Origin: Ornithinimicrobium sediminis
Lineage (GTDB): Bacteria; Actinomycetota; Actinomycetes; Actinomycetales; Dermatophilaceae
Direction: 5' to 3'
DNA: 64,000 nucleotides
NCBI RefSeq assembly: GCF_021272345.1
Contig: NZ_JAJSDQ010000004.1
Location: forward strand, 186,001 to 250,000
Of the stretch, positions 8,885 to 59,615 are shown piece after piece. The notes beneath the pieces were generated by a model. That model made no database searches. It was not told the origin of the DNA and saw only the letters and a program-made list of their open reading frames with translations. A program made the translations under genes and the position numbers. How positions within the stretch are numbered: the first letter of the stretch is position 1; every line of letters begins with the position of its first letter.

Positions 8885-8893
8885 TTATGAACG

Positions 8894-36830: not shown

Positions 36831-39800
36831 GTGGACGTCCACCTGAGCCTGGCAGGGGCGCTGACGCTGGTGCACGATGGCACTCGGATCGACGAGGTGG
36901 ACTTCGGCGGGCCGCAGGCTCGGCTGGTGACCGGGATGTTGCTGGTCGACCGGGAGCGTCTGTGGTCGGCGGAAGAGCTCGCGGACCAGCTATGGCCCGC
37001 GGGACCGCCACAGCAATGGAGACCGGCGGTGCGGGCCCTCGTGAGTCGCGTCCGCGCCCTGCTCCACCAGATCGGTGTGCCTGGTGACGCCATCGTCAGC
37101 CGAGCCGGCCGCTACCACGTCGATCTGCCCGACCTTGCAGTCGACCTCGAGATCGCCCGTCGGCGTGTCGAGCGAGCCGCGCAGGCGTTGGCTGAGGGGC
37201 GGTACGACGTGGCCGACCAGCTGGCCGGGCGGGCTCGGGCCGTGCTGTCCCAGCCCGTCCTCGCCGGCGTGGAGGCGCCGTGGGCCGAGGAGCTGCGTCA
37301 GGCGACGCGTCCCCATCTGGTCGACTCCCAGCTCCTGCTCGGGCAGGCACGGCGGTGCCAGGGCCGGTGGTCGGCAGCCCGTCTGGCCCTCACCGAGGCT
37401 CTCCGGCGGAGCCCGTTCCGGGAGGAGGTGTGGCGCGAGCTGATGATGGTCGAGGCAGCGGCGGGCAACGCCGCAACGGCTCTGGGGCTCTACGAGGAGT
37501 GCCGACGTCAGTTGGCCCAGGAGCTCGGCGCCGACCCCTCACCCGAGACGCAAGACCTGCACACGTCGATCCTGCGGGGTCTGCCGGTCGGTGCCTCACC
37601 TCCATCTGCTCCGGGCCGGGCGGCGTCGCACGGACCGACCACGACGCGGGTATGGGCGCCGTACGTCGGTCTACGGCCGTTCGAGCAGGTCGAGGCAGAC
37701 CGCTTCTTCGGCCGGGACGCCCTCGTGCAGCAGCTCGTGGAGAAGCTCGGCGAGCACCGTGCGGTGGCGGTGGTGGGTCCCTCGGGCAGTGGCAAGTCCT
37801 CGCTCGTGCGCGCGGGGCTGCTGCCCGCACTCGCGGCAGGTGCGATCCCGAACGCCGACACGTGGCCGGTCATGGTGCTCGTCCCGGGTCGTGACCCGTT
37901 GGACTCGTTGGCCGGAGCCTTGACAGAGGCCGGCATCGACGCTCGCGGGACGACGCCCGGTCCGGGGCGGCAACGTCGACGCTTGGCCGACGCGCTGGCC
38001 GCTGACCCGAGTCGTCTGCATCTGGAGGCAGAGCGGCTCCTGGCATCGCGATCCGCCGACCCCACGGCCCGGGTGCTCTTGGTGCTCGACCAGGCGGAGG
38101 AGCTGTTCACGGTCGCCGATGCGCCCCGGGCGGACTGCCTGCTCGCGGCGCTGAGGTCGGCGATTCGTCGTCGTACGCCGTGGCTCAGGGTGGTTGCCAC
38201 CCTGCGCGCCGACTTCTACGCCCACGCAGCGAGGAACCCCGACATGGCGGCGCTGCTGAGTCGCTCACAGCTCGTGGTGCCGCCGATGTCCGGAGCTGAG
38301 CTGGAGGCGGCCGTCGTCGGTCCCGCGGCGCTGGCCGGCGCTACTCTCGAGCGCGGCGTCGTCGGCCGGATCGTGGATGACGCCACTGGCGAGCCGGGTC
38401 GGCTTCCCCTGCTGCAACACACGCTCTGGGAGCTGTGGAGCCATCGTGACGGCTCGGTTCTGACTGTCGCGGGTTACGAGCAGATCGGTGGCCTTGCGGG
38501 AGCGCTGGCCAAGCATGCCGAACGCACCTGGCTGTCGGTCAGCGACCCGGCGGCGGCCCGAGGTGTGCTGCTGCGCGGAGTGGCACCCGGCGGTCGCGAC
38601 CGTGAGGACACCCGGCGTCCGATCCACCGTCACGACCTCGTCAGCGCTATCGGACCCGCGAGCTTGGACGCCGTGCTCGAGCACCTGGTGTCCCATCGGC
38701 TGCTCCAGGCTCGGACCAGCGGTGAGCAGGTCGTCTACGAGCTTGCCCACGAGGCCCTCATCACGGAGTGGCCGCGTCTGAACGGCTGGGTGTCCCAGAA
38801 GCGACAGCATCTCGCGACAGCCAGGGCCATCGAGACAGCGGCGCAACGCTGGCTGGACTCCGGCCAAGACCACGGCTGGCTGCTGACGGGTCAGGCGCTG
38901 GCCGAGGCGCGGACGATGCGTGCTGCCGTCGACGCCGGCGATCTCGACCTCGCGCTCTCCCAGGCCGAGGCCGAGCTCGTGGCGGCCTCCGAGGCAGAGG
39001 CTGCGGTGGAGGCCGCCGCACGGCGTGTCGAGCGGGGGCTGGCCGCGTCCCGGCTGCATCTCGTCGAGGACCCCGAGCTCGCCCTGCTGCTCGGTCTCGG
39101 CATGCTGCGCGACGTCGTGGACCTGGCGCCAGAACGCACCGCAGACCTGGCTGCGCTGCTTCGTGGTGGCATCCACCGACAGCGTCTGGTGCGCCGGATG
39201 GAGGGGCGCGGTGCGCTGCTGGCCGTCAGCGCAGATGGGACGCTGATGGCGCTGGCAGACCCCCCGGGTGCCACGGCCAGGCCTGACGGCCCGGTCGAGA
39301 TCCGGATCCACCGCATGGCGGACGAGGAGTGCCTGGCCCGCCTCCCGGGTCACGTGGGCGACCTCCTGCCACGAGCCGCCTTCAGCCCCGACGGGGCCCG
39401 GCTGGTCAGTGGAGACGGCCACGGAAGGATCCGCATTTGGTGTGCCACCACCGGGCGTCTCGAGGCGGAGTGGCCGGGACCGGACGGGCCAGTGGGCGGC
39501 GTGGACGTCGCCGCAGGCACGGGCTACATCGCCACCTGGGCCGCGATCGGTCACGACCGGCAGCTGGTCGTCTTCGACCCCGAAGGTCGCCACCTGCACG
39601 AGATGGCAGCGGACGGTCGTGCGGCGTTCGAGGAGGACCTTCCCCGCCCAGGTCGCCTGGTCGCGTTCAACCCTGCAGGGGATCGCCTCCTGGCGGCGGT
39701 CGGCGACGTGGCGCGGCGTCTCGACCTGATCGACGTGGCGACGTGGGAGAGGGTGGTCTCGACCAACCGTCCCACGAGCAGCGGCTCGACCCTGAACCTC

Positions 39801-41171
39801 TACCGGGAAGTGACGTCCCTGGAGTGGCATCCCGATGGCAGCCACGTCGCGGTGTCGCTCGGCCCCACTACCCAGATCCTCGATGGCGAGACGCTCCAGG
39901 TGCTGCGTTCAGCCCACTCCGACACCCGCGCGTCGGTTGCCTGGTCACCCGAGGGAGGGCGCGTCATCACGGCGGGACGATCGGTGTCGTTCCTCGACCG
40001 TCGCGACCCCGACCCCGAGCTGGACACGCCGGCGCCGCCGGTGAGGATCCGCCCCACCCACCCGTCGCCGGACCGGCTGCGGGTGCGCAGGGTCCCCGGC
40101 ACGGATCTCGTCGTGCTGGGAGCCGAGGGCAGCGGCGACCTGGACCTGCACGATGTCTCTGTCGCCGGGCCAGCCGAGGTTGCCAACCTGGCACCTATGC
40201 TCGGGCAAGGCGTCGCCTGGTCGCCGGACGGCTGCCACCTCGCCTTCGGTCGGGGCGGCGGCGAACTGGCCATCGTCGACAGTTCGACCTGGGCCGAGGT
40301 GACGCGTTACACGGCCCACACCCACGACCACGCCTGGCCCCGACTGGACGGGCCCATCGCCTGGTCGCCGGACGGCTCGTTCCTGGCCAGCACCGCCAAC
40401 GACGGCACGCTGGCGATGCGCGACCTCGCCCGTGGGACGACGACGACGGTGGCGGTCGGCGGTGCAAGCAACTGGCCGGGCACCGTCGGCATCACCCCCG
40501 ACAGCCGGCACATCGCCGCTGTCGCCACCGGCCGAGCGGTCGTCGCGCGTCGTGACGGCACGGTCGTGGCCAGCCTCGACGTGCCGACGGGAGGCCTCGG
40601 CATCCCTCGGCTGAGCGCCGATGGCACCCAGCTGGCCATCCCCAACCGGGGTCGACAAGGTCGCGCCGTCTCGGCGACCTGGACGACCCACCTCTGGAGG
40701 TGGGGATCGGACGAGCCTCCGCGGACGCTGGGCCCACCCGGCTCGAGGTTCGGCGAGTGCCTCAGCTTCCACCCCGACGGGCAGACGGTGGCCTTCGCGT
40801 CGGATGACCCCATCGTGTGGATCGTCGATGCGCACACGGGCGCCGTGCTGCGTGAGCTCGCAGGTCACGCCTTGCCGATCCAAGACGTGATGCACCACCC
40901 GAGTGGGCGCATGCTCGCGTCGAGCTCGTGGGACCGGACGGTCCGGGTGTGGGACCTCGCCACGGGCTCGGAGGTCGCGATGATCGCGTCCCTGACCGGA
41001 CCTCCAAGCATCCTGGCTTTCCACCCCACCCGACCCTGGCTGGCGGTCGCCGACTGGACGGGCGTGGTGAGGGTGTGGACCCTGGACTTCGACGAGCTCG
41101 TGGCGATCGCACGGAGCCGGGTCACGAGAGGTCTGAGCGACGAGGAGCTCACGCTGTCACGCGGGTCTTGA
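36831..41171 (+). CDS. SARP-type regulator fused to STAND NTPase and WD40 repeats
   Basis: 1446 residues. Residues 1-95 are an OmpR/SARP-type winged helix (SAEELADQLWPAGPPQQWRP), and about 100-245 a bacterial transcriptional activator domain ending DPSPETQDLH. An nSTAND1-type NTPase follows: YVGLRPFEQVEADRFFGRD, Walker A GPSGSGKSS at 316-324 and Walker B VLLVLDQAEELFT. A helical region precedes the C-terminal WD40-like repeats (from about 780 to the end, with DLLPRAAFSPDGARLVSGDG, GVAWSPDGCHLAF, RMLASSSWDRTVRVWD). GTG 36831 is chosen because it immediately starts the winged helix; the frame extends 165 codons upstream. Such proteins are large signal-integrating activators. No co-transcribed target is adjacent, but the secreted-protein gene is divergent. 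Confidence 0.9.
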   Translation: MDVHLSLAGALTLVHDGTRIDEVDFGGPQARLVTGMLLVDRERLWSAEELADQLWPAGPPQQWRPAVRALVSRVRALLHQIGVPGDAIVSRAGRYHVDLPDLAVDLEIARRRVERAAQALAEGRYDVADQLAGRARAVLSQPVLAGVEAPWAEELRQATRPHLVDSQLLLGQARRCQGRWSAARLALTEALRRSPFREEVWRELMMVEAAAGNAATALGLYEECRRQLAQELGADPSPETQDLHTSILRGLPVGASPPSAPGRAASHGPTTTRVWAPYVGLRPFEQVEADRFFGRDALVQQLVEKLGEHRAVAVVGPSGSGKSSLVRAGLLPALAAGAIPNADTWPVMVLVPGRDPLDSLAGALTEAGIDARGTTPGPGRQRRRLADALAADPSRLHLEAERLLASRSADPTARVLLVLDQAEELFTVADAPRADCLLAALRSAIRRRTPWLRVVATLRADFYAHAARNPDMAALLSRSQLVVPPMSGAELEAAVVGPAALAGATLERGVVGRIVDDATGEPGRLPLLQHTLWELWSHRDGSVLTVAGYEQIGGLAGALAKHAERTWLSVSDPAAARGVLLRGVAPGGRDREDTRRPIHRHDLVSAIGPASLDAVLEHLVSHRLLQARTSGEQVVYELAHEALITEWPRLNGWVSQKRQHLATARAIETAAQRWLDSGQDHGWLLTGQALAEARTMRAAVDAGDLDLALSQAEAELVAASEAEAAVEAAARRVERGLAASRLHLVEDPELALLLGLGMLRDVVDLAPERTADLAALLRGGIHRQRLVRRMEGRGALLAVSADGTLMALADPPGATARPDGPVEIRIHRMADEECLARLPGHVGDLLPRAAFSPDGARLVSGDGHGRIRIWCATTGRLEAEWPGPDGPVGGVDVAAGTGYIATWAAIGHDRQLVVFDPEGRHLHEMAADGRAAFEEDLPRPGRLVAFNPAGDRLLAAVGDVARRLDLIDVATWERVVSTNRPTSSGSTLNLYREVTSLEWHPDGSHVAVSLGPTTQILDGETLQVLRSAHSDTRASVAWSPEGGRVITAGRSVSFLDRRDPDPELDTPAPPVRIRPTHPSPDRLRVRRVPGTDLVVLGAEGSGDLDLHDVSVAGPAEVANLAPMLGQGVAWSPDGCHLAFGRGGGELAIVDSSTWAEVTRYTAHTHDHAWPRLDGPIAWSPDGSFLASTANDGTLAMRDLARGTTTTVAVGGASNWPGTVGITPDSRHIAAVATGRAVVARRDGTVVASLDVPTGGLGIPRLSADGTQLAIPNRGRQGRAVSATWTTHLWRWGSDEPPRTLGPPGSRFGECLSFHPDGQTVAFASDDPIVWIVDAHTGAVLRELAGHALPIQDVMHHPSGRMLASSSWDRTVRVWDLATGSEVAMIASLTGPPSILAFHPTRPWLAVADWTGVVRVWTLDFDELVAIARSRVTRGLSDEELTLSRGS

Positions 41172-41458: not shown

Positions 41459-42439
41459 TCAGCCCAGCTCATCCAGGAGCGCGGGAAGGACTTCGTGCAT
41501 GTCGCCGATGACGGCATACCGCGCCTTGGTCACCATCGGCGCCTCTTCGTCGGTGTTGACCGCGATGATGGTCCGCGAGGACGAGCATCCGGCCCAGTGC
41601 TGGATCGCGCCGCTGATGCCGCACGCCAGGTAGAGATCCGGGCTGATGCGGCTGCCGGTCTGGCCCACCTGCTCGTGGTGCGGACGCCAGCCGAGGCTGG
41701 TCACCACCCGCGAGACACCGACCGAGCCGCCGAGGCGCTCGGCGAGCGCCTCGGCAGCGGCGAACCGGTCGGCGCCACCGACCCCACGTCCGACCCCCAC
41801 GACCACCGAGGCGCCGGCCAAAGCCGAGGTGTCGCCGCCCTCACGCGCCTCGCTGCGCCGCACCTGGGCGACCAGGTCGGCCGGAGTCAGCTCGACCGCG
41901 ACCTGCTCCACCGTGGGCTGCGTCGGCTCTGCCGACGGGGCGGGTGCCACCGCGTGTCCCGCCACCGACGCCACCGCGAGCTGACCGCCGAGCCCGATCC
42001 GCTCCAGCACCGCGCCGCCGACGACCTGCCGCTCGACCTCGAGCGGGTCCAGCTGCACGATGTGCACCACGTTCGCCGCCATCGGCACGTCGTGGATGGC
42101 AGCCACGTGCGCCAGCACCTCGTTGCCGCACGGGGTGCCACCGCCGAGCAGGTATGCCGCACCGCTCACCTGGAGGCCGGCGTCGACGACGCGGGCCCAG
42201 GCAAGCGCCGCGTACCGCTCCAGCTGCGCATCCGTGGAGACGAACAGGGTGCGCACCCCCTGCTCGCGACACTGCGCCAGCACCCTCTCACCGGGCTGGC
42301 CGACCTGCCCGACGAGCACCGCGTGGACCCCCTCCCCGGGTAGTCCACGCGCGAAGGTCAACGTCTCCTCAGCCACCACGGACAGGCCCGCCTCGCCCTG
42401 GCCGGGGTCCTCCATCTCCACGAGCACCAGCACGCTCAT
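41459..42439 (-). CDS. etfA: Electron transfer flavoprotein, alpha subunit
   Basis: 326 residues. The C-terminal FAD domain shows GVGRGVGG, then VGQTGSRISPDLYLACGISG, AIQHWAGC and the late IIAVNTDEEAPM, the family signature. It forms a heterodimer with EtfB and passes electrons from flavin dehydrogenases to the respiratory quinone pool. ATG 42439 overlaps the EtfB stop by ATGA. It is the third gene of a minus-strand operon headed by a dimethylglycine-oxidase-like enzyme, so electrons from N-demethylation are the likely source. A matching ETF-quinone oxidoreductase is not in the window. Confidence 0.94.
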   Translation of the reverse strand: MSVLVLVEMEDPGQGEAGLSVVAEETLTFARGLPGEGVHAVLVGQVGQPGERVLAQCREQGVRTLFVSTDAQLERYAALAWARVVDAGLQVSGAAYLLGGGTPCGNEVLAHVAAIHDVPMAANVVHIVQLDPLEVERQVVGGAVLERIGLGGQLAVASVAGHAVAPAPSAEPTQPTVEQVAVELTPADLVAQVRRSEAREGGDTSALAGASVVVGVGRGVGGADRFAAAEALAERLGGSVGVSRVVTSLGWRPHHEQVGQTGSRISPDLYLACGISGAIQHWAGCSSSRTIIAVNTDEEAPMVTKARYAVIGDMHEVLPALLDELG

Positions 42440-43206
42440 CGCACGACTCCCAGCTCGCGCAGCACCTGGGCAAGCCGCACGGCGGCGCCAGTACCGTGAC
42501 CCAGCACCTCCACCTGGCTCTCCGGCGGTGGAAGCACCCGCAACCCGAGCCGGCCGTTGCCCCGCGGTTCGACACCCGGTGCGAGGACCTCGATCGGCGT
42601 CTTCCTGGCCCGCATCCGTCCGGTGATCGCAGGGTAGCGCGGCTGCACGCCGCCCTCCAGCACGGTGGCGACTGCGGGCAACGGCAGCTCGTAGACCACG
42701 GTCCCCGTCGCCGTCCCGGCCCGGACCTCGGCCCGGCCCTCGGCCACGGTGATCGTCTGCGCCCCGGCCACCACCGGCCGCGCGAGCAGGTGCGCCAGCC
42801 GGATACCGACCTGGTGATCTCCGGTGTCAGCAGCGTCGTTGCCCAGCAGCACCAGGTCGTAGCTGGTGCCACCGGCCTCCTTCTCGCGCACGGCGGAGGC
42901 GATCGCGGCGGCGACGTCGCCCGGCCCGAAGCCATCTGCCTGCGCATCGATCCGGACGGCCGCATGGGCACCTACTGCGACCGCGGCCCGCAGCTGCTCC
43001 ACGCAGTCCTCTTGCCCCAGGCTGAGCACGGTGACCTCACCACCGGACTCACCGGCGATCTCCACCGCGATGGCGACGGCACACTCCTCGTGCTCGCTCA
43101 TGGTGTAGCCGGCGTAGCGCCCGTCCACTGCGTCCCCGGCCTCGTTCAGCACCACTTCGCCGCTGGCGTCGGGCACCCTCTTCACACACACCAGCACGTC
43201 GGTCAT
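42436..43206 (-). CDS. etfB: Electron transfer flavoprotein, beta subunit
   Basis: 256 residues. It begins MTDVLVCVKRVPD, then has EHEECAVAIAVEIA, an AMP-binding-type loop (LLGNDAADTGDHQVG) and YELPLPAVATVLEGG with KARKTPIEV-like RMRARKTPIEV at the recognition loop. It pairs with EtfA (ATGA overlap). The frame is open upstream; ATG 43206 gives the conserved N-terminus and is one base from the end of the flavoprotein gene. Neighbours make it the electron acceptor of that flavoprotein. Confidence 0.94.
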   Translation of the reverse strand: MTDVLVCVKRVPDASGEVVLNEAGDAVDGRYAGYTMSEHEECAVAIAVEIAGESGGEVTVLSLGQEDCVEQLRAAVAVGAHAAVRIDAQADGFGPGDVAAAIASAVREKEAGGTSYDLVLLGNDAADTGDHQVGIRLAHLLARPVVAGAQTITVAEGRAEVRAGTATGTVVYELPLPAVATVLEGGVQPRYPAITGRMRARKTPIEVLAPGVEPRGNGRLGLRVLPPPESQVEVLGHGTGAAVRLAQVLRELGVVR

Positions 43207-43207
43207 C

Positions 43208-45760
43208 TCAGGCGCCCCCCGTCCCGGGACCCAGCTCGGCATACCGCCCCTTCACCCGCAGGTTGTCCGGGTCGAGCAGCGGGGTGGCGTCGGCGCGGGC
43301 CACGGTGACGGGGAAGAGCTGCTCCATGTAGGAGACCGCCAGCTCGGTGCCGGGCACCGCCTGCGCGGGCGGTAGGAATGCCATCAGCACGTGCGTGCCC
43401 AGACTCGGTGCCGAGGCGGCCGAGGTGACGTATGGATGGTGTCCGTGCCCGTCGGTCAGGAGCTGGCCCTCACGGGTCAGGATGGGTTCGCCACCGAGCA
43501 TGTAGCGCCTCGAGCCGTCGGCGCAGGTGTGGTCGTCGACGGTCAGGGCGCACAGGACCGCCCTGGGGGCCACGCCTTGTTGCTCGAGGACCGCCTGTCT
43601 GCCGATGAAGTCGGCGTCCTTGATCCTGGGCCTGCTCATCCCCGTCTCGAAGAGGCTGCGCTCTGCGTCCAGCTCTGCGCCGTAGGCGCGGTACCCCTTC
43701 TCGATCCGACCGGTGGCGGTGTAGACGCCGATCCCGACAGGCCCGACGCCGTGCTCGCGCCCGGCCTCGATCAGCCGGTCCCACAGCGCCGCTCCGGTCT
43801 CCATCGGCACGTAGAGCTCCCACCCGAACTCCCCCACGTAGGAGATCCTGGAGGCCAGCACCGACAGCTCCCCGACCTCGATGAGCCTCCACGTCGCGAA
43901 CGCGAAGCTCTCCGGGGAGATGTCGTCGTCGGTCAGCGCGCCGAGCACGTCGCCCGCCCGCGGTCCCCAGAGACCGACCGTGCTGATGGCGGAGGTGAGG
44001 TCGACGAGCCGGGCCCCATCGGGCAGGTGGTCGGCGAACCACTTCTTGTCGACCATGCCGTGCGCTCCGCCGGTGACGACGCGGAAGTGGTCGTGCGCGA
44101 GGCGCATGACGGTCAGGTCGGAGCGGAAGCCACCAGCCTCGTCCAGCACCGGGGTGTAGATGACCCGGCCCACCCGGACATCCGCCTGTGCCACGACGAT
44201 GCGCTGGATCGCGGCCAGGGCCTGCGGGCCGACGACGTCGAAGATCGCGAAGGCGGTCAGGTCCACGATCCCGCCGCGGGCCCGCATCGCCAGGTGCTCC
44301 GCGTTGATGATCGGGCTCCACCAGCGGGCATCCCACTCGTTCTCCCGGTGCATCACTGCCTCACCGAACTCCTCCAGGAGGCCGGCGTTGGTCTCGTACC
44401 ACTGTGGGCGCTCCCAGCCCACGGCCTCGTGGAAGACGGCACCGAGCTCACGCTGCGCGGCGTGCATCGGGGAGAGCCGCAGCGGGCGCGAGCTCTGCCA
44501 CTGCTCTGCGGGGTGCACGATGCCGTAGGTCTTGTTGAAGCCTTCGCTGGTGCGGGCGCGGATGTGGGCGCGCGTCCGCTGGTGCGGATAGAAGCGGGCG
44601 ATGTCGCTGGCTCCCAGGTCGATCTCGGAGCGACCGTGGGTCATCCACTCGGCCATGGCCCGCCCGACGCCGGGACCTTCCTTGATCCATACCGCTGCGC
44701 AGCTCCACAGCCCACCGACCTCGGGAGTCTCCCCCAGCACCGGTGCGCCGTCGGGGGTGAGCGAGAGCAGGCCGTTGATGGCGTACCGGATCTCGGCGCG
44801 CTCGTCGCCGAGCAGCTCGGGCATGATCTCCAGGGCCTGTTCCAGCTGTGGGTCGAAGTCGTCCTCCGTGAACGGCATCTCGGTCGGCGAGAGCTTGGCC
44901 TGCGCGATCGAGGGGATCTCCTCGGGCTCGTGCAGGATCGGCCGGTGCGCATAGGAGCCGACCTCCATGTCCGAGCCGTGCTGGCGTTCGTAGCAGAACG
45001 TGTCCATGTCGCGGATGATCGGGAAGCTGATCTCACCCTCCGTCCCGGCCAGCGGGGCGCAGGGTCCCACCGAGATCATCTGGTGCACCGCCGGGGTCAG
45101 CGGGATGTGCGCGCCCGCCATCCGCGCAAGCCGAGGGCTCCAGACGCCGCAGGCGATGACCACCACGGGGGCCTCGATCGAGCCTTTGTCGGTCTGCACG
45201 GCACGGACTCGGCCCTCGGTCACGGTCATCCCCGTCACCTCGACGTTCGGCACGGTGGTCAGGGCACCGGACTCCTGGGCCCGCTCCCGCATGATGGTGC
45301 CGGCGCGCAGCGAGTCGACCACGCCGACGGACGGCGTGTAGAAGCCCCCGACCACGACGTCGGGGTCGACGAAAGGCACCATCTCGACGATCTCCTCCGG
45401 GGTGACCAACCGCGACTCGACCCCCCAGGCCGTGGCCGACGACATCCGACGCCGCAGCTCCTCCATCCGCTCCTGCGTCCGCGCGACCTCGATGCCGCCG
45501 GACTCGGTGAAGACGCCCATCTCGCGGTACTGCCGAACCGAGTCCAACGTCAGGTCTGTGATCTCGCGACTGTGGTCGACGGGGAAGACGAAGTTTGAGG
45601 CATGACCGGTGGAGCCGCCGGGGTTCGGCAGCGGACCCTTGTCTATCTGCACGATGTCGTGCCACCCCAGCAGGGCCAGATGGTGGACCAACGCGTTCCC
45701 GACGATGCCGGCCCCGATGACCAGCACGTCACAGCGGTCCGGGAGGGTTGATCTGCTCAT
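43208..45760 (-). CDS. FAD-dependent dimethylglycine/sarcosine oxidase-dehydrogenase-like protein with GcvT domain
   Basis: 850 residues, the length of dimethylglycine oxidase. The N-terminal half is a DAO-type flavoprotein: VIGAGIVGNALVHHLALLGW near residues 14-33 and PGGSTGHASNF, where His corresponds to the position of the covalent flavin in dimethylglycine oxidase. The C-terminal half (from about 430) is a GcvT-like folate domain (VDLTAFAIFDVVGPQALAAI, SYVGEFGWELYVPMETG). Oxidation of an N-methyl amine would give a methylene group transferred to tetrahydrofolate. ATG 45760 is the start; EtfA/B follow, so it is probably an ETF-linked dehydrogenase. The exact amine is unknown. Confidence 0.88.
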   Translation of the reverse strand: MSRSTLPDRCDVLVIGAGIVGNALVHHLALLGWHDIVQIDKGPLPNPGGSTGHASNFVFPVDHSREITDLTLDSVRQYREMGVFTESGGIEVARTQERMEELRRRMSSATAWGVESRLVTPEEIVEMVPFVDPDVVVGGFYTPSVGVVDSLRAGTIMRERAQESGALTTVPNVEVTGMTVTEGRVRAVQTDKGSIEAPVVVIACGVWSPRLARMAGAHIPLTPAVHQMISVGPCAPLAGTEGEISFPIIRDMDTFCYERQHGSDMEVGSYAHRPILHEPEEIPSIAQAKLSPTEMPFTEDDFDPQLEQALEIMPELLGDERAEIRYAINGLLSLTPDGAPVLGETPEVGGLWSCAAVWIKEGPGVGRAMAEWMTHGRSEIDLGASDIARFYPHQRTRAHIRARTSEGFNKTYGIVHPAEQWQSSRPLRLSPMHAAQRELGAVFHEAVGWERPQWYETNAGLLEEFGEAVMHRENEWDARWWSPIINAEHLAMRARGGIVDLTAFAIFDVVGPQALAAIQRIVVAQADVRVGRVIYTPVLDEAGGFRSDLTVMRLAHDHFRVVTGGAHGMVDKKWFADHLPDGARLVDLTSAISTVGLWGPRAGDVLGALTDDDISPESFAFATWRLIEVGELSVLASRISYVGEFGWELYVPMETGAALWDRLIEAGREHGVGPVGIGVYTATGRIEKGYRAYGAELDAERSLFETGMSRPRIKDADFIGRQAVLEQQGVAPRAVLCALTVDDHTCADGSRRYMLGGEPILTREGQLLTDGHGHHPYVTSAASAPSLGTHVLMAFLPPAQAVPGTELAVSYMEQLFPVTVARADATPLLDPDNLRVKGRYAELGPGTGGA

Positions 45761-45778
45761 CGCGACGAACCCTTCCAA

Positions 45779-45812
45779 CTGCGTATTGCGCAACTCTGCG
45801 CGTATAACGCAA
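45779..45812. promoter_or_regulatory. Pair of IclR-type operators near the flavoprotein gene
   Basis: CTGCG-TATTG-CGCAA at 45779-45793 and GCGCG-TATAA-CGCAA at 45798-45812 match the palindrome TTGCG-N5-CGCAA. They start exactly 19 bp apart, and the nearest is 19 bp upstream of the flavoprotein start codon. They mirror the pair at 45911-45944. Confidence 0.6.
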
Positions 45813-45910
45813 CTATCGTGCGCCCGGGTCGAACTCCTGTCAAGGGCCCTTCTCGGGGACTCTCCCGTGCCAGGCCTCCCCTTCCGGCCGGCCTTGATGT
45901 GTGACTGCTG

Positions 45911-45944
45911 TTGCGTATAGCGCAAACCGTTGCACTATTCGCAT
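45911..45944. promoter_or_regulatory. Pair of IclR-type operators near the GcvT-like gene
   Basis: TTGCG-TATAG-CGCAA at 45911-45925 is a perfect palindrome, and TTGCA-CTATT-CGCAT at 45930-45944 is a weaker one, again 19 bp between starts. They lie about 92-126 bp before ATG 46037. Confidence 0.6.
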
Positions 45945-46036
45945 CGCATGAGGTAGCGTGCGTAGGCACGCTGAGTCACAGCGCACTGCTCTGGTCGGTC
46001 CATGCAGGTCCGGCCCTGCACCGCAAGGAGGGGACG

Positions 46037-47416
46037 ATGACACCGTTCCTGAGCACCGCGACCTACGCGGACAAGGCCGCTGAGCAGGCCGCCCCGCAGG
46101 CAGCCTCACCTCATACCAGCCACCACAACCACCCGACGGTGAACCAGGGCCGGACCCTGCCGGTGAACCTTCGGCAGACCGGCTCGACCCCCGTGGAGCT
46201 GCTGATCTCGACCCGCATCCGCAAGTCGCCCTACTGGCACCTGTCGGTCGCCGCCGGCGCCTGGCGCGCCGAGGTGTACAACCGCGTCTACCACCCGCGT
46301 GGCTATCTCTCCATGGAGGAGGGCGGCCCGCTCAACGAGCACCAGTCTGTGGTGAACGACGTCACCATGTGGAATGTCGCGGTGGAGCGCCAGATCCAGG
46401 TCACGGGCCCGGAGGCCGAGGACTTCGTCAACTACGTCATCACCCGGCAGGCCAAGAAGATCTCACCGATGCACGCGCGCTACGTCATCCTCTGCAACGA
46501 GGCCGGCGGCATCCTCAACGACCCGGTGCTGCTGCGCCTGTCGCAGGACGAGTTCTGGTTCAGCGTGTCCGACTCCGACCTCATGCTGTGGCTGCAGGGG
46601 GTGAACGTCGGCAAGGGGTATGACGTGCGCATCCAGGAGATCGACGTCTGCCCGGTCCAGATCCAGGGCCCGAGGTCCGAGGCCCTGATGCATGACCTGA
46701 TCGGCCCGGTGGTCGCCGACATCCCGAACTACGGTCTCGCCGCGGCCTCGGTCGCGGGGCTGCCGGTGATCGTCTCCCAGACCGGGTTCACCGGTGAGAA
46801 GGGTTACGAGATCTACCTCTACGACGCCACCCTTCACGCCGAGGAGATGTGGCACGCAGTGCTGGAGGCCGGCAAGGCGCACAACCTGCGGGTGATCGCC
46901 CCCGCCCACCCCCGACGCGTCCAGGCAGGCATTCTCTCCTGGGGCCAGGACATGGACGCCGAGACCTCGCCGCTGCAGACCAACCTCGCCTACCAGGTGC
47001 CGCGGATGAAGGAGGAGGACTACGTCGGCAAGGAGGCACTGGAGGCCCAGCGGGCACAGCTGGAGGCGGGTTTCCCGCCCTTCACCCAGATGCTGGTCGG
47101 GATGAGGCTCGGCGGGAAGCCGATCACCGACTACGCGCCGGACTTCTGGTTGGTGAGCACGGCCGAGCATGACGACCCTGTCGGCTACCTGACCTCGCCC
47201 TGGTACTCGCCGGAGCTCGGGACCAACATCGCCCTGGGCTACGTGCCGGTCGAGCAGAGCCAGGTCGGCACCCAGCTGCGGGCATGGCTGCCGGACGAGT
47301 ATGCCGAGACCCCCGGCGAGCCGGTCGGCGCCGTGGTGGTGCAGGTGCCGTTCCGCCCGTCGGTCAACCCCAACACCCGCGAGGTGCTGGCGGACGAGGG
47401 CAAGCAGTTTCTCTGA
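46037..47416 (+). CDS. GcvT/DmdA-like tetrahydrofolate-dependent methyltransferase
   Basis: 459 residues. After a polar N-terminal tail with a His-rich stretch (HTSHHNHP, about 29-36), the GcvT fold is clear: TMWNVAVERQIQVTGPEAED, KISPMHARYVILCNEAGGIL, NDPVLLRLSQDEFWFSVSDS and TGFTGEKGYEIYLYD. It resembles DmdA-type dimethylsulfoniopropionate demethylases and other aminomethyltransferases; such proteins move a methyl or methylene group to tetrahydrofolate. CAAGGAGGGG precedes ATG 46037. It is divergent from the flavoprotein operon across paired IclR-type operators. The substrate could be DMSP, a betaine or an O-methyl aromatic; the sequence does not decide. Confidence 0.85.
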   Translation: MTPFLSTATYADKAAEQAAPQAASPHTSHHNHPTVNQGRTLPVNLRQTGSTPVELLISTRIRKSPYWHLSVAAGAWRAEVYNRVYHPRGYLSMEEGGPLNEHQSVVNDVTMWNVAVERQIQVTGPEAEDFVNYVITRQAKKISPMHARYVILCNEAGGILNDPVLLRLSQDEFWFSVSDSDLMLWLQGVNVGKGYDVRIQEIDVCPVQIQGPRSEALMHDLIGPVVADIPNYGLAAASVAGLPVIVSQTGFTGEKGYEIYLYDATLHAEEMWHAVLEAGKAHNLRVIAPAHPRRVQAGILSWGQDMDAETSPLQTNLAYQVPRMKEEDYVGKEALEAQRAQLEAGFPPFTQMLVGMRLGGKPITDYAPDFWLVSTAEHDDPVGYLTSPWYSPELGTNIALGYVPVEQSQVGTQLRAWLPDEYAETPGEPVGAVVVQVPFRPSVNPNTREVLADEGKQFL

Positions 47417-47458
47417 GCCGCACCTACACGCGGCAGGGCCCGGTCGCCCCGCCTGGCC

Positions 47459-48238
47459 TCAACCGTGCCACCCGAGCCGGGTGGACAGGCCGGTCGCGGC
47501 GCGTCGCAGCGGGGCGAGCAGCTCCCCCTCCCGCTCGACACCCATCCGGAAGGACGGACCGGACAGGCTGATCGAGGCCACCAGCTCCCCGTGGACGTTG
47601 TAGACCGGAGCAGCCATCGCGGTGAGGCCGATGTCCAGCTCGTCCCGCACTACGGCATAACCCTGCTTCCTGACCACCGCGACGAGCCGCTCCAGCTCCG
47701 CCGGCTGCGTCACCGTGTGCTCGGTGAAGGCGGTGAGCTCGCCCCAGGCCTCTCTGCGCTCGGCGGGGGAGAGCCCACCGAGCAGCACGCGGCCGTTCGA
47801 GGTGGCGTGTAGCGGGATGTGCTGCCCGACCCAGTTGTACGAGGTGATCGTCGAGGGGCCGAGTGCCTGGTCCACGTAGAGAGCCGTGTGTCCGGCCATC
47901 ACCGCGACGTTGACGGTCTCGCCGGTCTCCTCCGCCAGTGCCCGGCATACCGGCCGCCCCTCCTGGACGAGGTCGAGCCGGGCAGTCGTCGCCCCGGCCA
48001 GGCGAAGGATGCCTGGACCCAGCCGCACCGGACCGCGAGCCTCCGGCTGCTCCACCAGGTCATGGGCAGAGAGGGCGGCGACCGTCCGGCTGACGGTGCT
48101 CTTGTGGACCCCGAGCTCGTCGGCGATCTCGCCCAGACCTGCCTCGCCGGTGCGTGCCAGGATCTCGAGGATGGTCAGGGCCCGCTCAACGGACTGCACC
48201 GGGGACCGGTCGCCCCCGTCGCTCTCCTCGTCCGCCAT
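47459..48238 (-). CDS. IclR-family transcriptional regulator
   Basis: 259 residues. The N-terminal winged helix reads SVERALTILEILARTGEAGL, IADELGVHKSTVSRTVAAL; the C-terminal IclR effector domain contains HIPLHATSNGRVLLGGLSP, then RDELDIGLTAMAAPVYN and ASISLSGPSFRM. It probably binds the TTGCG-N5-CGCAA palindromes in the 45761-46036 promoter and at the metF start. ATG 48238 is 10 nt after the metF stop, so it is in the metF operon. A TAGGGT box 7 nt upstream could drive it separately, but it overlaps the metF stop codon. Convergent with the GcvT-like gene. Confidence 0.92.
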   Translation of the reverse strand: MADEESDGGDRSPVQSVERALTILEILARTGEAGLGEIADELGVHKSTVSRTVAALSAHDLVEQPEARGPVRLGPGILRLAGATTARLDLVQEGRPVCRALAEETGETVNVAVMAGHTALYVDQALGPSTITSYNWVGQHIPLHATSNGRVLLGGLSPAERREAWGELTAFTEHTVTQPAELERLVAVVRKQGYAVVRDELDIGLTAMAAPVYNVHGELVASISLSGPSFRMGVEREGELLAPLRRAATGLSTRLGWHG

Positions 48239-48248
48239 ACGGCCCACC

Positions 48249-49124
48249 CTAGGGACCGGAGGGACGGGCGCCACGCTCGGGGTGGATGCCCGACAGCATG
48301 TCCAGCTGCTCTCGGCGCCAGGACTCGGTCCGGCCGACCTGGTTGAAGGTATAGATGTGCAGTCCGCAGATCCCGAGGCGCTCGTCTGCCGCCAGCTGGG
48401 CGACCTTGTGCACGAAGGTGGTGCTGGAGAAGCCCGGCAGGACGATCCGGGTGAACACGTTCTTCTGCTTGCGCAGGAACCGTATCGAGTCACCGGCCCC
48501 GATCGTCGTGGCCATCCGCAGCAGCTTGCCGGGGTCGACCGGCCCGGGGACGCCCACGTGCACGGGCAGGGCGACGCCGCGGTCGCGGACCGACTCCAGC
48601 CACCTCCCCACCATTGCGTGGTCGAAGGTCATGTTCGACACGATGGAGGTGGCGTGCTCGCGCTTGGCCCACATGGACTCCACCAGGACGTGGTCGTCGA
48701 TGCCAGGGTGGGACTCCGGGTAGCCGGTGATGCCGACGTGCTCGAACGGCCTGCCCAGGTCGTCCAGGGCCAGCAACAGCTCCAGTGCGCCCTCGAAGGT
48801 CTCGACGGTGCCGGTCGCGTCCCCCCCGGGCACGAAGACCTCGGTCACGCCGGCTTCCTGCAACCGTGACACCAGGCGGGGCAGCCCGGCCCGGGGCACC
48901 ATCCGTGCTGCCAGGTGCGGCACCACGTGGTAGCGCTGCGCCAGCCGCTCGGTGACCTCGAGCGTGGCGTCCAGTCCCTTGGTCGGTGACGCCGTGACCG
49001 TGATGGTGCGACCTGGCGCCACATGCTCGTGCACCCGGTCGACGATGCCCCCAGACGGCAGCACCTCCAGCCGGGCGTCGAGCAGCAACGACCTCAGGGC
49101 GGAGGGCGGACGCTTGTTGCTCAT
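48249..49124 (-). CDS. metF: Methylenetetrahydrofolate reductase
   Basis: 291 residues, normal for bacterial MetF. The TIM barrel shows the early VTASPTKGLDATLEV, VPHLAARMVPR, VFVPGGDATGTVETFEG, ITGYPESHPGIDDHV and the late FNQVGRTESWR. The last stretch, IYTFNQVG, matches the barrel end. The enzyme interconverts methyl- and methylene-tetrahydrofolate. In this cluster it could run in the oxidative direction, recovering methyl groups put on folate by the GcvT-like protein. ATG 49124 follows AGAAAGAGG with a 7-nt space. An IclR-type palindrome covers its start codon. Confidence 0.88.
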   Translation of the reverse strand: MSNKRPPSALRSLLLDARLEVLPSGGIVDRVHEHVAPGRTITVTASPTKGLDATLEVTERLAQRYHVVPHLAARMVPRAGLPRLVSRLQEAGVTEVFVPGGDATGTVETFEGALELLLALDDLGRPFEHVGITGYPESHPGIDDHVLVESMWAKREHATSIVSNMTFDHAMVGRWLESVRDRGVALPVHVGVPGPVDPGKLLRMATTIGAGDSIRFLRKQKNVFTRIVLPGFSSTTFVHKVAQLAADERLGICGLHIYTFNQVGRTESWRREQLDMLSGIHPERGARPSGP

Positions 49125-49131
49125 CACGCAA
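49117..49131 (-). promoter_or_regulatory. IclR-type operator over the metF start
   Basis: TTGCT-CATCA-CGCAA at 49117-49131 differs from the TTGCG-N5-CGCAA palindrome at one arm position. It covers the start codon (49122-49124) and extends into the Shine-Dalgarno spacing. It is 3.2 kb from the other sites, which links metF to the same regulator. Confidence 0.5.
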
Positions 49132-49211
49132 CCTCTTTCTCAAGACGCATCCAACCTACGAGAGTCCGGAGCTCAGGACAAGCACGCGAGCGCGGGTCAT
49201 CTCCGCCCCTG

Positions 49212-50026: not shown

Positions 50027-50273
50027 AGGCCATTGCTGGTCAGAGGCAGTTATGGCCTCCAGGCGGCTGCTCCGCGAGCCGGGGATCGCCGTCCGCAATC
50101 CGTCGCAGGCGGCCATCCCTGTATGCCGAACCTCGTCGGGGTGCGGTGGTGCTGTGTCACGACGCTCATCCGCCGTCGAGTGAGACCCTCCGTCGACCCC
50201 GGCGAGGCACCTTTCGAGTGCGCAGAGCGGTGGAGGCCAGGCCGGTGTGCTCGTGCCCCGTGCGTCGCCGCTC

Positions 50274-50279
50274 CATACT
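50274..50279 (+). promoter_or_regulatory. -10 box of a leaderless promoter
   Basis: CATACT ends 6 nt before GTG 50286. Confidence 0.4.
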
Positions 50280-50285
50280 GATGGG

Positions 50286-53200
50286 GTGAGCGTGTTCACG
50301 GGTCTGGACGCCAGTGCCCGGCCCGGAGTGGAGATCCGGCTTCTCGGCGCGTTCTCCGTGACCGTATCGGGCGAGCGGGTGGTCCCGCGCGCGTGGAGAC
50401 TGGCGAAGGCACAGCACGTCGTGAAGCTTCTGGCACTCGACTCGCGCCATCGCCTGCACCGTGACGAGCTGATCGACCTGCTGTGGCCCGACCGCCAGCC
50501 TCGATCGGCGGCGAACAACCTGTACCAGGCGCTGTCGGCCGCTCGGAGGGCCATCACGTCGGCCGGTGGTGACGGGCATGACTGTCTGCGCCTGGAGGAT
50601 GAGTGGGTCACGTTCGCCCCTGAGGCCGGTGTCTGGGTCGATGTCGAAGCCTTCGAGGCACTGAGCTGCAGCAAGGACCCCAGGGACCTACGCGCGGCGT
50701 TGTCCTTGTACGGCGGCGAGCTGCTGGCCGACGACCGGTATGCCGAGTGGCTGATGGTGCGCCGCGCCGCCCTTGGCCGCGCGCGGAACGACCTGCTGCG
50801 AAGGCTGGCGCAGCATTGCCTGGACGCGGGGGACCTCGTCGAGGCGCGCAGGCTGTTGGAGAGGGTGCTCAACGACAACCCCGTGGACGAGAACGCCCAC
50901 CAAGCCCTGATGCGCGTCCATGCGCACTCTGGCAACCGAGCCGCAGCACAACAACAGTTCGCTGCGCTCGAGCTGGCGTTGCGTGACGACCTCGACGTCG
51001 AACCTGCCGTCGAGAGTCGTCGCATCCTCGACCAGATCCGTAGGGGGAGGTTGGCGCCCCCCGAGCCCGTCACGTCCCGGGTGGCCGGACACTCGCGCGA
51101 TCACCGTGACATCCCGAACAACCTCCCGACGGCGCTGAGCAGCTTCGTCGGGCGCGAGCGCGAGCTGGCTGAGCTCACGGTGGCCATCTCCCGTCGTCGC
51201 CTGGTGACACTCACAGGTCCTGGCGGGTGCGGCAAGACCAGACTCGCCACCGAGGTCGCCGCCCGATGCCTGGACGAGTCCCTGGACGGGGTCTTTCTGG
51301 TCGAGCTGGGTCCGCTCACCTCGAGGTCCGGGGTCGACCTCGAGATCGCACGCACCCTCGGCGTGCGTGGCGCCCCCCAGCAGGGCCTGATGAACGCGAT
51401 CGCCGACCGGATCGGCACCGGACGGCAGCTGCTCCTGCTCGACAACTGCGAGCACCTGATCGACGCCGCGGCCGCGGTCGCCGAGACGTTGCTGTCGGCG
51501 TGCCCGCGACTCACCGTGGTCGCCACGAGCCGCGAGCCGCTTCGTGTGCCCGGCGAGTGGGTCCGTCGCGTGCCGTCACTGCGACTGCCGGACGTGGACG
51601 ACCTGCCCGCGCCGAACGCGCTGACCCGGTACGAGTCGGTGCGTCTCCTCGTCGACCGGGTGTCTGTGGGCGACCCGGACTTCGAGCTCGACGAGTCCAA
51701 CGCCGCCACGGCTGCCCAGATCTGCGTGCGACTCGACGGCCTGCCCCTTGCACTTGAACTGGCGGCGGCGCTGGTCCCTGCCCTGACTCTGGCTGCCGTC
51801 GCTGAGGGACTGGACGACCGGTTCCACCTGCTCACCGCCGGCCGGAGAACCGGGCTGACCCGGCATCAGACGCTCGAGGCCGCCATCGGGTGGAGCTTCG
51901 ACCTCCTCCCCGACGAGCAACGGTCCCTGCTGTGTCGGCTGGCGACCTTCCGGGACAGCTTCGCCGTGCCGGAAGCGGTGGCGGTGGGGACCGCAACCGA
52001 CACGAGTCCCGCTGCGGTAGCGGCACGGCTGGCCGACCTGGTGGACCGGTCGATGATCGTCGCCGAACCAGTCATGGACCAGCCACGTTTCCGCCTTCTC
52101 GAGACGATCCGGGAGTACGCCCTGACCGAGCTCCGCGACCGTGGTGCCGTCGAGGAAGCTCTCGACGCACATGCCAGGTGGTTCGCCTCGTACGTCGACC
52201 GCGCCGTGGGCGAGCTGACCGGACCCGAGCACCACCGATGGCTCGCACGACTCGACCAGTCACGCACCGACCTGAGGGCGGCCCTCGCGCGGCTACGCCG
52301 TATCGACCCCTCCGAGGCGGTTCGGCTCGCCTCCGCGATGTGGACATACTGGTTGTTGTTCGGGTACCTCGATGACGGCATCAGGGAGCTCGAGGCCGCG
52401 CTGGCCGTTGCGGACGGACCTTCCGAGGCGCGATCTGCGTGCTGGCTGGGCGTCTTCGCGCTGCACAGCAGATGGAAGGGCATCCGCAGCCCGAGCATGC
52501 ACGGCTACATCGACAACGCCGTGGCCGAAGCACGTGCCGTCCGGGGCGCGGCAGCCGAGAGCAGGGCGCTCGTGTTCGACGGCATCCACCGGTTGTTCAC
52601 CGACCTCGACCCCTTCGACGCCGCCGGGGCGCAATTCCACCGCGCCGAGGAGATCGCGTCCTCGGGCGGTCTGGTCACCGACCAGGCTTCGGCTCTTCAT
52701 GCTCGCGCGGTGCTGGCGGCCCACTGCTCCCGAGTCGAGCTGTCCCATGAGCTCCTCCTGGAAACCCGTCGGCTGCTGAGATCTCAGCCGCGAGAGGCCG
52801 GCGCTGTGCTGATGCTGCCGGTCTGCCCGGTGACGACGTCCCGGCGGCTCGGGGTGCCCTGGTTGGTGTGGGAGGACACACTCATGCCACACCGCGCCAC
52901 GGCTGGGCCATCAGCCGAGGCCTACGTCGAGGCGAACCTGGGAAGCCTGAAGCGGGCCGTGGGGCAAGGAGGCGAGGCCCGGGGGCACTTCGAACGGGCG
53001 CAGGCCACCTACCAGGACGAAGGCGACGAGTCCGGTGAGGCACTCGTGTTGGCACGGCTCGGCTCGCTCGCACTCGCCCAGGGCGAGCTCGAGCGAGCCA
53101 GACTCCGGATGGAAGAGTCCCTGGTCGCCTACGAGAATGTCGGCGACGTGCGCGGGCGTCACATGGTGATGCTCGGGCTCAGTAGGGTCGCGATTGAAGA

Positions 53201-53579
53201 GAGGACTCCCCGCACCGCCCGGAGGCTGCTGGACGATGTCCAGCGTGCCGCGCGGGAGCAGGGAGACCTCCCGGCGGTGCTGGGTGCGCTCGAGGTTCGT
53301 GGCGAGCTCGAGGTAGCCGTGGGTGCCTTCGGTGCGGGTCTCAAGGCGCTGCGCGAGGCGCTCGAGATATCGACGGTGATGGGTCAGCACCTGACGACTG
53401 CACTGGTCAGCCTCGACCTCGCCGACGCCCTTCGGCGAGCGGGCAGACCGACGGACGCCCTGGAGCTCGCGAGAGCGGCCCACACCACCTTCGAGACGCT
53501 CGGCTACGAACACGCAGCAGCGTGCTGCCGGCGCATCCTGACCGAGGCGGACGACTCACACCTGTTCAGCCCGCGCTAA
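50286..53579 (+). CDS. SARP/BTAD regulator fused to NB-ARC STAND ATPase (AfsR-like)
   Basis: 1097 residues. An OmpR-type winged helix (IRLLGAFSVTVSGERVVPRA, ELIDLLWPD) occupies about 15-95; a BTAD domain follows to about 250 (ALRDDLDVEPAVESRRI). After LSSFVGRERELAELTVAISR comes an NB-ARC-type ATPase with Walker A GPGGCGKT at 311-318, LLLLDNCEHLID, TSREPLRVPGE and LPLALELAAALVPAL. The remaining C-terminal half is helical with TPR-like repeats. GTG 50286 is chosen for a CATACT box 6 nt upstream. Such regulators activate secondary metabolism or catabolic genes. The FAD oxidase downstream, 69 bp away and in the same direction, is the obvious target. Confidence 0.9.
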   Translation: MSVFTGLDASARPGVEIRLLGAFSVTVSGERVVPRAWRLAKAQHVVKLLALDSRHRLHRDELIDLLWPDRQPRSAANNLYQALSAARRAITSAGGDGHDCLRLEDEWVTFAPEAGVWVDVEAFEALSCSKDPRDLRAALSLYGGELLADDRYAEWLMVRRAALGRARNDLLRRLAQHCLDAGDLVEARRLLERVLNDNPVDENAHQALMRVHAHSGNRAAAQQQFAALELALRDDLDVEPAVESRRILDQIRRGRLAPPEPVTSRVAGHSRDHRDIPNNLPTALSSFVGRERELAELTVAISRRRLVTLTGPGGCGKTRLATEVAARCLDESLDGVFLVELGPLTSRSGVDLEIARTLGVRGAPQQGLMNAIADRIGTGRQLLLLDNCEHLIDAAAAVAETLLSACPRLTVVATSREPLRVPGEWVRRVPSLRLPDVDDLPAPNALTRYESVRLLVDRVSVGDPDFELDESNAATAAQICVRLDGLPLALELAAALVPALTLAAVAEGLDDRFHLLTAGRRTGLTRHQTLEAAIGWSFDLLPDEQRSLLCRLATFRDSFAVPEAVAVGTATDTSPAAVAARLADLVDRSMIVAEPVMDQPRFRLLETIREYALTELRDRGAVEEALDAHARWFASYVDRAVGELTGPEHHRWLARLDQSRTDLRAALARLRRIDPSEAVRLASAMWTYWLLFGYLDDGIRELEAALAVADGPSEARSACWLGVFALHSRWKGIRSPSMHGYIDNAVAEARAVRGAAAESRALVFDGIHRLFTDLDPFDAAGAQFHRAEEIASSGGLVTDQASALHARAVLAAHCSRVELSHELLLETRRLLRSQPREAGAVLMLPVCPVTTSRRLGVPWLVWEDTLMPHRATAGPSAEAYVEANLGSLKRAVGQGGEARGHFERAQATYQDEGDESGEALVLARLGSLALAQGELERARLRMEESLVAYENVGDVRGRHMVMLGLSRVAIEERTPRTARRLLDDVQRAAREQGDLPAVLGALEVRGELEVAVGAFGAGLKALREALEISTVMGQHLTTALVSLDLADALRRAGRPTDALELARAAHTTFETLGYEHAAACCRRILTEADDSHLFSPR

Positions 53580-59546: not shown

Positions 59547-59615
59547 CCGGCATACCTGCTCCTTGCTAGGTTGGTCGGCACGCCGACTCGGGAGACCCCC
59601 GGAAGGAGCACGAGG

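Follow-up and report, generated by a model that had tools for sequence, protein, structure and literature searches.

Among the nitrogen osmolytes of seawater and brines, glycine betaine is very common, and its first aerobic demethylation is known to proceed via GbcAB, BHMT or the cobalamin-dependent MtgBCD. A further route is suggested by a 64-kb stretch of DNA (70.6% GC; hereafter the window) from the 3.5-Mb genome of the actinomycete Ornithinimicrobium sediminis. Positions 41459-49124 of the window hold three transcription units: a gene of dimethylglycine oxidase/dimethylglycine dehydrogenase (DMGO/DMGDH) type followed by etfB and etfA on the minus strand, a gene for a DmdA-like protein of the GcvT family (P0001) on the plus strand, and metF followed by iclR on the minus strand. 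We favor, with moderate confidence, the reading that this module strips methyl groups from glycine betaine and passes them to tetrahydrofolate (THF), the DmdA-like protein acting as a glycine betaine:THF methyltransferase whose substrate is assigned from gene context. A preliminary description of the locus had left the substrate evenly open; relatives of the DmdA-like protein sit among glycine betaine catabolic genes, and the assignment therefore moves from open to probably glycine betaine.

In the proposed scheme, the DmdA-like protein would move one methyl group of glycine betaine to THF, giving dimethylglycine and 5-methyl-THF, a step that would need no cobalamin, oxygen or homocysteine. 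MetF, probably working here in the methyl-THF-oxidizing direction, would convert 5-methyl-THF to methylene-THF. The DMGO-type protein would oxidize dimethylglycine to sarcosine, with the carbon leaving as methylene-THF, as its full-length homology suggests, and with the electrons going to the electron transfer flavoprotein EtfAB rather than to O2, as gene adjacency suggests. DmdA itself transfers a methyl group of a sulfonium to THF without net redox change, yielding 5-methyl-THF (PMC5395565), and MetF2, the most differentially synthesized protein on three nitrogen osmolytes, has been suggested to oxidize methyl-THF (PMC12478193).

Orthologues of P0001 outside its own genus are ~52-72% identical to it, with Photobacterium, Marinobacter, SAR11 and haloarchaea among the carriers. 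A genome scan yielded 14 loci (L035-L048) with 59-72% identity, from Photobacterium, Marinobacter, Marinobacterium, Roseospira, Salinarimonas, an ectothiorhodospiracean, a SAR11 single-cell genome, a Hyphomicrobiales metagenome-assembled genome and Pseudonocardia. Nine of these loci have genes of the glycine betaine line nearby, that is, genes for sarcosine oxidase (Sox), Dgc, a DMGDH-type protein or GbdR. In four of the five long Photobacterium loci (L039, L040, L043 and L045, not L036), the DmdA-like gene stands between sox and dgc genes, in the order soxB, a gap, soxA fused with soxG, the DmdA-like gene, metF, formate-THF ligase, M19 dipeptidase, DUF5943, dgcA-like, dgcB-like and etfA; soxD was not identified in the Photobacterium loci, and the gap lies at its expected place. 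NCBIfam cut-offs are exceeded in L040 by SoxA (1411 vs. 1164 bits), SoxB (701 vs. 529), Fhs (831 vs. 652) and SoxG (154 vs. 144, in the same reading frame as SoxA), and the M19 peptidase and DUF5943 are clear there. No model named DgcA or DgcB matched in the Photobacterium loci; both names follow from gene order and from the Vibrio/Pseudomonas cluster of PMC12093977. A GbdR homologue is present in L037, L038, L042 and L046, above the GbdR cut-off in L042 (493 vs. 480), and a DMGDH/DMGO-type gene lies close by in L037, L042, L046, L050, L051, the window and three further loci, L057-L059. Linked dimethylglycine and sarcosine steps occur in L039, L040, L043 and L045 (DgcA, Sox) and in L046 (DMGDH-type, Sox); the window has the dimethylglycine type only. 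The Pseudonocardia orthologue (L048:10001-11286) is split across two frames by a frameshift or a sequencing error.

Haloarchaeal plasmids carry orthologues with 52-63% identity, and 12 loci were opened out of 16 hits at at least 51.7% identity. metF lies within ~4 kb in ten of the 12, and an FAD-dependent oxidoreductase of ~850 aa within 10 kb in nine; the oxidoreductases of L050 and L051 carry a C-terminal GcvT-like part. Other genes annotated in these loci encode serine hydroxymethyltransferase (four loci), formate-THF ligase (two), a FolD-type protein (two), threonine ammonia-lyase (three), dihydrofolate reductase (six) and a BCCT transporter (one). Together, the neighboring genes could complete a route from glycine betaine through glycine and serine. 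DMGO-like genes near BCCT transporters in haloarchaea have been described before, with glycine betaine use left undecided (PMC3102087).

The preliminary description had named MetF as the partner of the DmdA-like protein, and the linkage bears this out: metF lies within 3 kb of the DmdA-like gene in 54 of 56 genomes, the exceptions being L052 and L061. These figures condense 62 loci (60 with metF), six genomes fetched twice being counted once, and they leave out L048, with its frame broken in two, and L063, at a contig end; neither L048 (21 kb) nor L063 gave a MetF match above 60 bits. Within the SAR11 family, an orthologue is present in 81 of 147 genomes at a best match of 1e-130 or better (96 matched at 1e-20, the 15 weaker or fragmentary ones not being counted, and many genomes are small and maybe incomplete), and each of the 25 loci fetched has metF at a distance of ~1 kb. 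Closer to home, the gene occurs in seven of 149 genomes of its own family, one of them partial. Across a class sample of 296 genomes, 14 match at 1e-60, and the DmdA-like clade itself is present in the own genome only; the other 13 matches are 38-47% identical, and the ten placed in the tree described below all fall in an actinobacterial sister clade. Such patchy spread fits horizontal transfer among salt-exposed lineages.

Among 197 genomes of the Photobacterium family, the DmdA-like gene is found in 14, DgcA in 21 and both in 13, so that DgcA occurs in 13 of 14 genomes with the gene vs. eight of 183 without it (Fisher p 4e-14), and the gap between the two genes is below 8 kb in ten of the 13 genomes that have both. 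Every one of the 21 DgcA-positive genomes has the DmdA-like gene or a Rieske alpha subunit: all eight DgcA-positive genomes without the gene have a Rieske protein (PF00848), and three genomes (G442, G443 and G447) have the gene without any Rieske alpha subunit. Rieske proteins from ten genomes were compared, carriers G439, G496, G513, G521, G528 and G531 being left out. Nine of them form one group with 56-98% mutual identity, here termed GbcA-like; a reductase-like gene was noticed next to them by eye, and in G614 and G603 dgcA is on the same stretch. The Rieske protein of G591 lies outside the group (22-29% identical). G442, G443, G447 and G591 thus have the gene, and a GbcA-like protein was not found in them. 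Two DgcA-positive genomes without the gene, G476 and G525, have an fhs-like gene near the dgc cluster (by eye). Among 13 carrier genomes reached via the scan, a set excluding the genome of L043, PF00848 occurs in three and MttB (PF06253) in none.

P0001 itself (459 aa; 46037..47416, plus strand; Pfam GCV_T and GCV_T_C) appears to define a new branch within a known enzyme family, and the substrate proposed for it would be new as well. The closest solved structure is DmdA (PDB 3tfh/3tfi/3tfj; E 7e-39 with a single sequence, 9e-57 with a profile; ~31% identical). P0001 scores below the NCBIfam cut-offs for DmdA (NF009133, PRK12486; 231.6 vs. 410 bits), GcvT (TIGR00528, 138.9 vs. 235.85; PRK00389, 164.4 vs. 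300), LigM and DesA (31.6 and 43.4 vs. 580 and 800), and likewise for trimethylamine N-oxide (TMAO) demethylase and SoxA. In a tree of 61 rows (LigM, DesA and TMAO-demethylase rows and L048 left out), 30 orthologues form one clade with 100/100 support, recovered in every one of 200 bootstrap trees. When the tree is rooted on the GcvT/oxidase side, its sister comprises two annotated DmdA, two roseobacter plasmid and 12 actinobacterial proteins. Nine GcvT rows, together with the DMGO and SoxA domains, are set apart by a long 100/100 branch, although long branches meet at this GcvT/DmdA-side join and such joins may be false. P0001 thus clusters apart from glycine-cleavage T-proteins, and the tree outcome that the preliminary description had named as a refutation did not occur. 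Three identities were rejected: canonical DmdA, since the orthologues form their own 100/100 clade, annotated DmdA rows group elsewhere and the DmdA cut-off is missed; GcvT, since P0001 lies on the opposite side of the 100/100 branch and misses the TIGR00528 and PRK00389 cut-offs; and LigM/DesA, whose cut-offs are missed as well. A separate GcvT is encoded on another contig of the own genome.

D162, S176, E258 and Y260 are conserved in 30 of 30 orthologues, and the last three correspond to the folate-contact residues S122, E204 and Y206 of DmdA, whose roles were taken from PMC7487153 and mapped by offset. N-D-P and W-x-S-x-x-D residues are common to P0001 and the DmdA side and are not shared by GcvT. 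Where DmdA has W197, 29 of 30 orthologues have Phe; a Trp at alignment position 171 of PMC7487153, equated with W197 by the folate-residue offset, is described there as key for dimethylsulfoniopropionate (DMSP), and the argument from it is weak because two roseobacter DmdA rows have Tyr at this position. That paper also describes a "non-DmdA" clade, which may contain the present family. A His-rich N-terminal tail (H26-H32), singled out previously as unusual, is real; it is confined to P0001 among 13 aligned orthologues, same-genus relatives having a shorter NHNHP and conservation starting at ~R39, so it is no family feature and its importance was dropped.

Two neighboring groups in the tree deserve mention in their own right. 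A second actinobacterial clade (L062, L064-L077; 12 rows in the tree), 35-44% identical to P0001, stands beside the DmdA and roseobacter proteins, and 11 of its 15 loci have metF or formate-THF ligase as a neighbor. The GcvT-like proteins of the roseobacter plasmids (L053:7980-9119 and L054:7977-9119) group with DmdA and adjoin Lrp/AsnC, OsmC, enoyl-CoA hydratase and acyl-CoA synthetase genes, perhaps another sulfonium or coenzyme A (CoA)-linked demethylation route.

The remaining genes of the module also hold up to inspection: all six predicted genes are real open reading frames at the positions first described, and all six proteins exceed Pfam cut-offs. P0002 (850 aa; 43208..45760, minus strand) has the DMGO/DMGDH domain order DAO, FAO_M, GCV_T, GCV_T_C and matches dimethylglycine oxidase PDB 1pj5 over its full length (residues 12-838, E 3.2e-156). 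Within GGFRSDLTV it keeps the Asp that distinguishes chain 1pj5 from 3gsi, which we take to be a catalytic mutant of dimethylglycine oxidase. We infer that P0002 is a dimethylglycine, possibly also sarcosine, demethylase yielding methylene-THF; the pairing of one such enzyme with a DmdA-like one that presumably forms methyl-THF, as proposed in the preliminary description, is supported. After a 1-base gap follows etfB (EtfB, 256 aa; 42436..43206, minus strand; Pfam ETF, 81 bits), which overlaps by 4 bases with etfA (EtfA, 326 aa; 41459..42439, minus strand; ETF_alpha 101 bits, ETF 63 bits; syntenic in L057-L059). MetF (P0005, 291 aa from ATG; 48249..49124, minus strand) is short and divergent, above the Pfam MTHFR cut-off (30.4 vs. 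24 bits) and below that of NCBIfam TIGR00676 (50.3 vs. 293.7); a GTG at 49127 could serve as start instead of the ATG at 49124. Downstream of metF, after 10 bases, lies the IclR-family regulator gene (259 aa; 47459..48238, minus strand; IclR_C 146 bits, HTH_IclR 52 bits). The best NCBIfam model for this protein is BhcR (NF045644), with 178.6 bits against a cut-off of 350.

A shared putative operator, a direct repeat with 19-nt pitch, ties the three promoters into one module, and this earlier proposal is supported by the search results. Pattern search placed the repeat at 45788..45812 (minus strand) in the DMGO-etf promoter, at 45911..45935 (plus strand) in the promoter of the DmdA-like gene, where it contains a perfect TTGCGTATAGCGCAA, and at 49126..49150 (minus strand), abutting the metF start codon. 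On both strands of the whole window, the 19-nt direct-repeat core occurs three times, precisely at these promoters; as the core was derived from them, the promoter matches arise by construction, and the lack of further matches elsewhere in the 64 kb does not. Two half-sites exactly 19 nt apart are present in all 11 preselected promoter segments (three from the window and eight from L057-L059, with the same promoters), and the half-site pattern itself also finds a site at L059:5352, ahead of the L059 MetF match. With up to three mismatches, TTGCGTATNNCGCAA has 12 matches in the window vs. 4.7 +/- 2.0 in shuffles, none of 100 shuffles reaching 12, and eight of the 12 fall in the two promoter regions. 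An IclR-family regulator would bind the repeat at all three promoters and switch them jointly, probably as a repressor. The IclR protein of the module is suggested as the binder by adjacency and by the conserved iclR gene in L057-L059, and repression appears likelier because the repeats closely follow -10-like boxes (judged by eye) and one abuts the metF start. Genome-wide, the 15-mer with up to two mismatches has 16 matches vs. seven for a reversed control. One further operator-like site, with one mismatch, lies near a formate-dehydrogenase-like operon elsewhere in the genome (L165, contig C15, ~3312-9573), where it overlies the point at which a divergent XRE-type gene begins; the match is possibly due to chance.

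Several points weigh against glycine betaine as the substrate. We know of no precedent for moving a methyl group directly from a quaternary ammonium compound to THF in the absence of cobalamin; DmdA acts on a sulfonium, a better leaving group, and glycine betaine is chemically harder. Five of the 14 scan loci (L035, L036, L044, L047 and L048, two of them short) lack Sox, Dgc, DMGDH and GbdR genes altogether, as do the actinobacterial L060 and L061, and L048 and L061 are also without metF. Among the haloarchaeal loci, L052 and L185 have neither metF nor the FAD oxidoreductase, and L049 lacks the latter. A Rieske alpha subunit lies inside the cluster of H. marismortui and H. sinaiiensis, flanked by two FAD-dependent oxidoreductases at L183:18052-19191 and L186:18052-19191. 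Creatininase-family genes in L050, L179, L180, L181, L182 and L184 suggest that other N-methyl compounds may feed these clusters. Betaine is reported to have been no help to H. walsbyi and to have gone unused by H. utahensis (PMC3102087), two species outside our carrier survey. In the Photobacterium family, PF00848 Rieske proteins occur in ten of 13 DgcA-positive carriers, and G481, G505 and G509 have both the DmdA-like gene and a GbcA-like protein. Strict replacement of GbcAB was rejected, ten of 13 DgcA-positive carriers having a Rieske hit and three of the four examined being GbcA-like; this coexistence makes the proposed route alternative or additional rather than a simple replacement. Finally, the structure predicted with 13 close orthologues was of poor quality (mean pLDDT 52, pTM 0.42) and was set aside.

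A rival reading is that the DmdA-like protein demethylates another quaternary ammonium compound, such as proline betaine, a carnitine derivative, choline or trigonelline, whose product joins the same operons. GbcA-like proteins coexisting with the gene in some Photobacterium-family genomes are consistent with such a role, as are the haloarchaeal creatininase-family genes and the two Rieske alpha subunits, which suggest more than one N-methyl substrate, and the loci without glycine betaine-line genes nearby (L035, L036, L044, L047, L048, L052, L060, L061 and L185). We nevertheless regard it as rather unlikely. The informative neighbors belong to the line from glycine betaine through dimethylglycine to sarcosine (SoxA/SoxB, DgcA/DgcB-like, GbdR and DMGDH-type proteins), and G442, G443, G447 and G591 would otherwise be left without a recognized step from glycine betaine to dimethylglycine, unless BHMT, which was not searched, or imported dimethylglycine serves.

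An organosulfur methyl donor is less probable still. It could be DMSP or, as speculated for SAR11_1265, the second methyl of the DMSP route (methylmercaptopropionate, MMPA). DmdA is the nearest relative in the tree and in the PDB, the SAR11 gene adjoins metF, and SAR11_1264 and SAR11_1265 are among 23 genes with significant change under sulfur limitation (PMC5069961), where the values 0.20/0.12 and 0.10/0.10 look like decreases, the table columns not being resolved. The DmdA cut-off, however, is missed, and the W197 position is Phe in nearly all orthologues, a weak point given the Tyr of roseobacter DmdA rows. Unlike L053-L054, the 12 annotated haloarchaeal loci have no set of acyl-CoA synthetase, dehydrogenase and hydratase genes next to the orthologue (isolated genes for an AMP-binding protein or acetate-CoA ligase are found at a distance of 5-10 kb in L049, L052 and L181), and no such set was noticed by eye in the unannotated loci. 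Two further alternatives we consider very improbable. A LigM/DesA-type O-demethylase working with MetF would match the known arrangement of metF beside a GcvT-family demethylase, but the LigM and DesA models match weakly, and inspection by eye of the loci read brought up no gene cluster for aromatic catabolism. A mere further glycine-cleavage T-protein next to a dimethylglycine oxidase, with no glycine betaine-specific function, would suit the public records that label relatives "glycine cleavage T C-terminal barrel" or "aminomethyltransferase" proteins, but it is disfavored by the long 100/100 branch that splits the clade from GcvT, SoxA and DMGO rows, by the separate GcvT, by the metF linkage and by the shared operators.

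Glycine betaine is thus our preferred substrate, and a wider proposal, to which we give about an even chance, is that a glycine betaine:THF methyltransferase family independent of cobalamin, oxygen and homocysteine, spread across SAR11, Photobacterium, other halophilic proteobacteria, actinobacteria and haloarchaea, constitutes a further aerobic route of glycine betaine demethylation, is the true function of SAR11_1265, and may carry a large share of oceanic glycine betaine methyl oxidation. SAR11_1265 probably belongs to the DmdA-like clade, judging from its gene arrangement. It was placed beside metF, with a speculated role in processing the second DMSP methyl, by Sun et al. 2011 (PMC3160333), who linked a different GcvT-like gene, SAR11_1303, to glycine betaine. 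BHMT in SAR11 lacks experimental validation according to PMC12478193, the main text of which mentions neither GcvT nor DmdA, and in the open-licence literature, as far as its text was available, we found no paper naming a THF-dependent glycine betaine demethylase of this family. If the proposal is true, a direct THF-dependent enzyme would require neither oxygen nor B12, would account for carriers that have neither Rieske nor MttB-type proteins, would provide a gene present in over half of the SAR11-family genomes searched (81/147) with a function that can be tested, and would mean that methyl groups on quaternary nitrogen are within reach of enzymes on the DmdA side of the GcvT family.

The own genome supplies further context. 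The cluster has no transporter, as first described, although two BCCT-family transporters are encoded outside it. A molybdopterin oxidoreductase looks, by eye, like the alpha subunit of a formate dehydrogenase, a DAO-family protein could be a monomeric sarcosine oxidase (by eye), and none of the four GCV_T matches in the genome lies in a frame of SoxA size. Flanking the module are a 1611-aa frame at 36336-41171, BTAD/WD40 regulator-like by eye, and, at 50247-53579 (plus strand), a 1110-aa BTAD-domain transcriptional activator; farther on, at 59571-61985 (plus strand), lies a large protein with Pfam GHL5 (hypothetical glycoside hydrolase 5; 787 bits). Overall, the observation made in the preliminary description is confirmed, and its interpretation was right in outline and is partly supported.

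Among known systems, P0001 resembles DmdA in belonging to the GcvT family, in having it as nearest solved relative on the same tree side and in keeping its folate-contact residues, and it differs in its low identity, its own clade, an N-terminal extension, Phe for W197, linkage to metF and the lack of a dmdBCD-like set seen beside it. With GcvT it shares the GCV_T and GCV_T_C domains and the Asp at 162, and differs in tree position, missed cut-offs and the N-D-P and W-x-S-x-x-D residues. P0002 matches Arthrobacter dimethylglycine oxidase (1pj5) over its full length and shares the domain order of that enzyme and of mitochondrial DMGDH (5l46, 4pab); EtfAB encoded next to it suggests use as a dehydrogenase rather than an oxidase. 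LigM/DesA and the demethylenases BrdA/SesA (PMC5547118) likewise perform THF-dependent GcvT-like demethylation; the former match P0001 weakly. SAR11_1265/SAR11_1264 (PMC3160333) offer the same pairing of a GcvT-like protein with metF, an arrangement from which the HTCC1062 protein probably belongs to the present family. GbcAB, MtgBCD and BHMT share with the module the proposed reaction from glycine betaine to dimethylglycine and similar downstream genes. GbcAB uses O2, BHMT homocysteine and Mtg cobalamin (PMC12478193), whereas P0001 is proposed to use THF directly.

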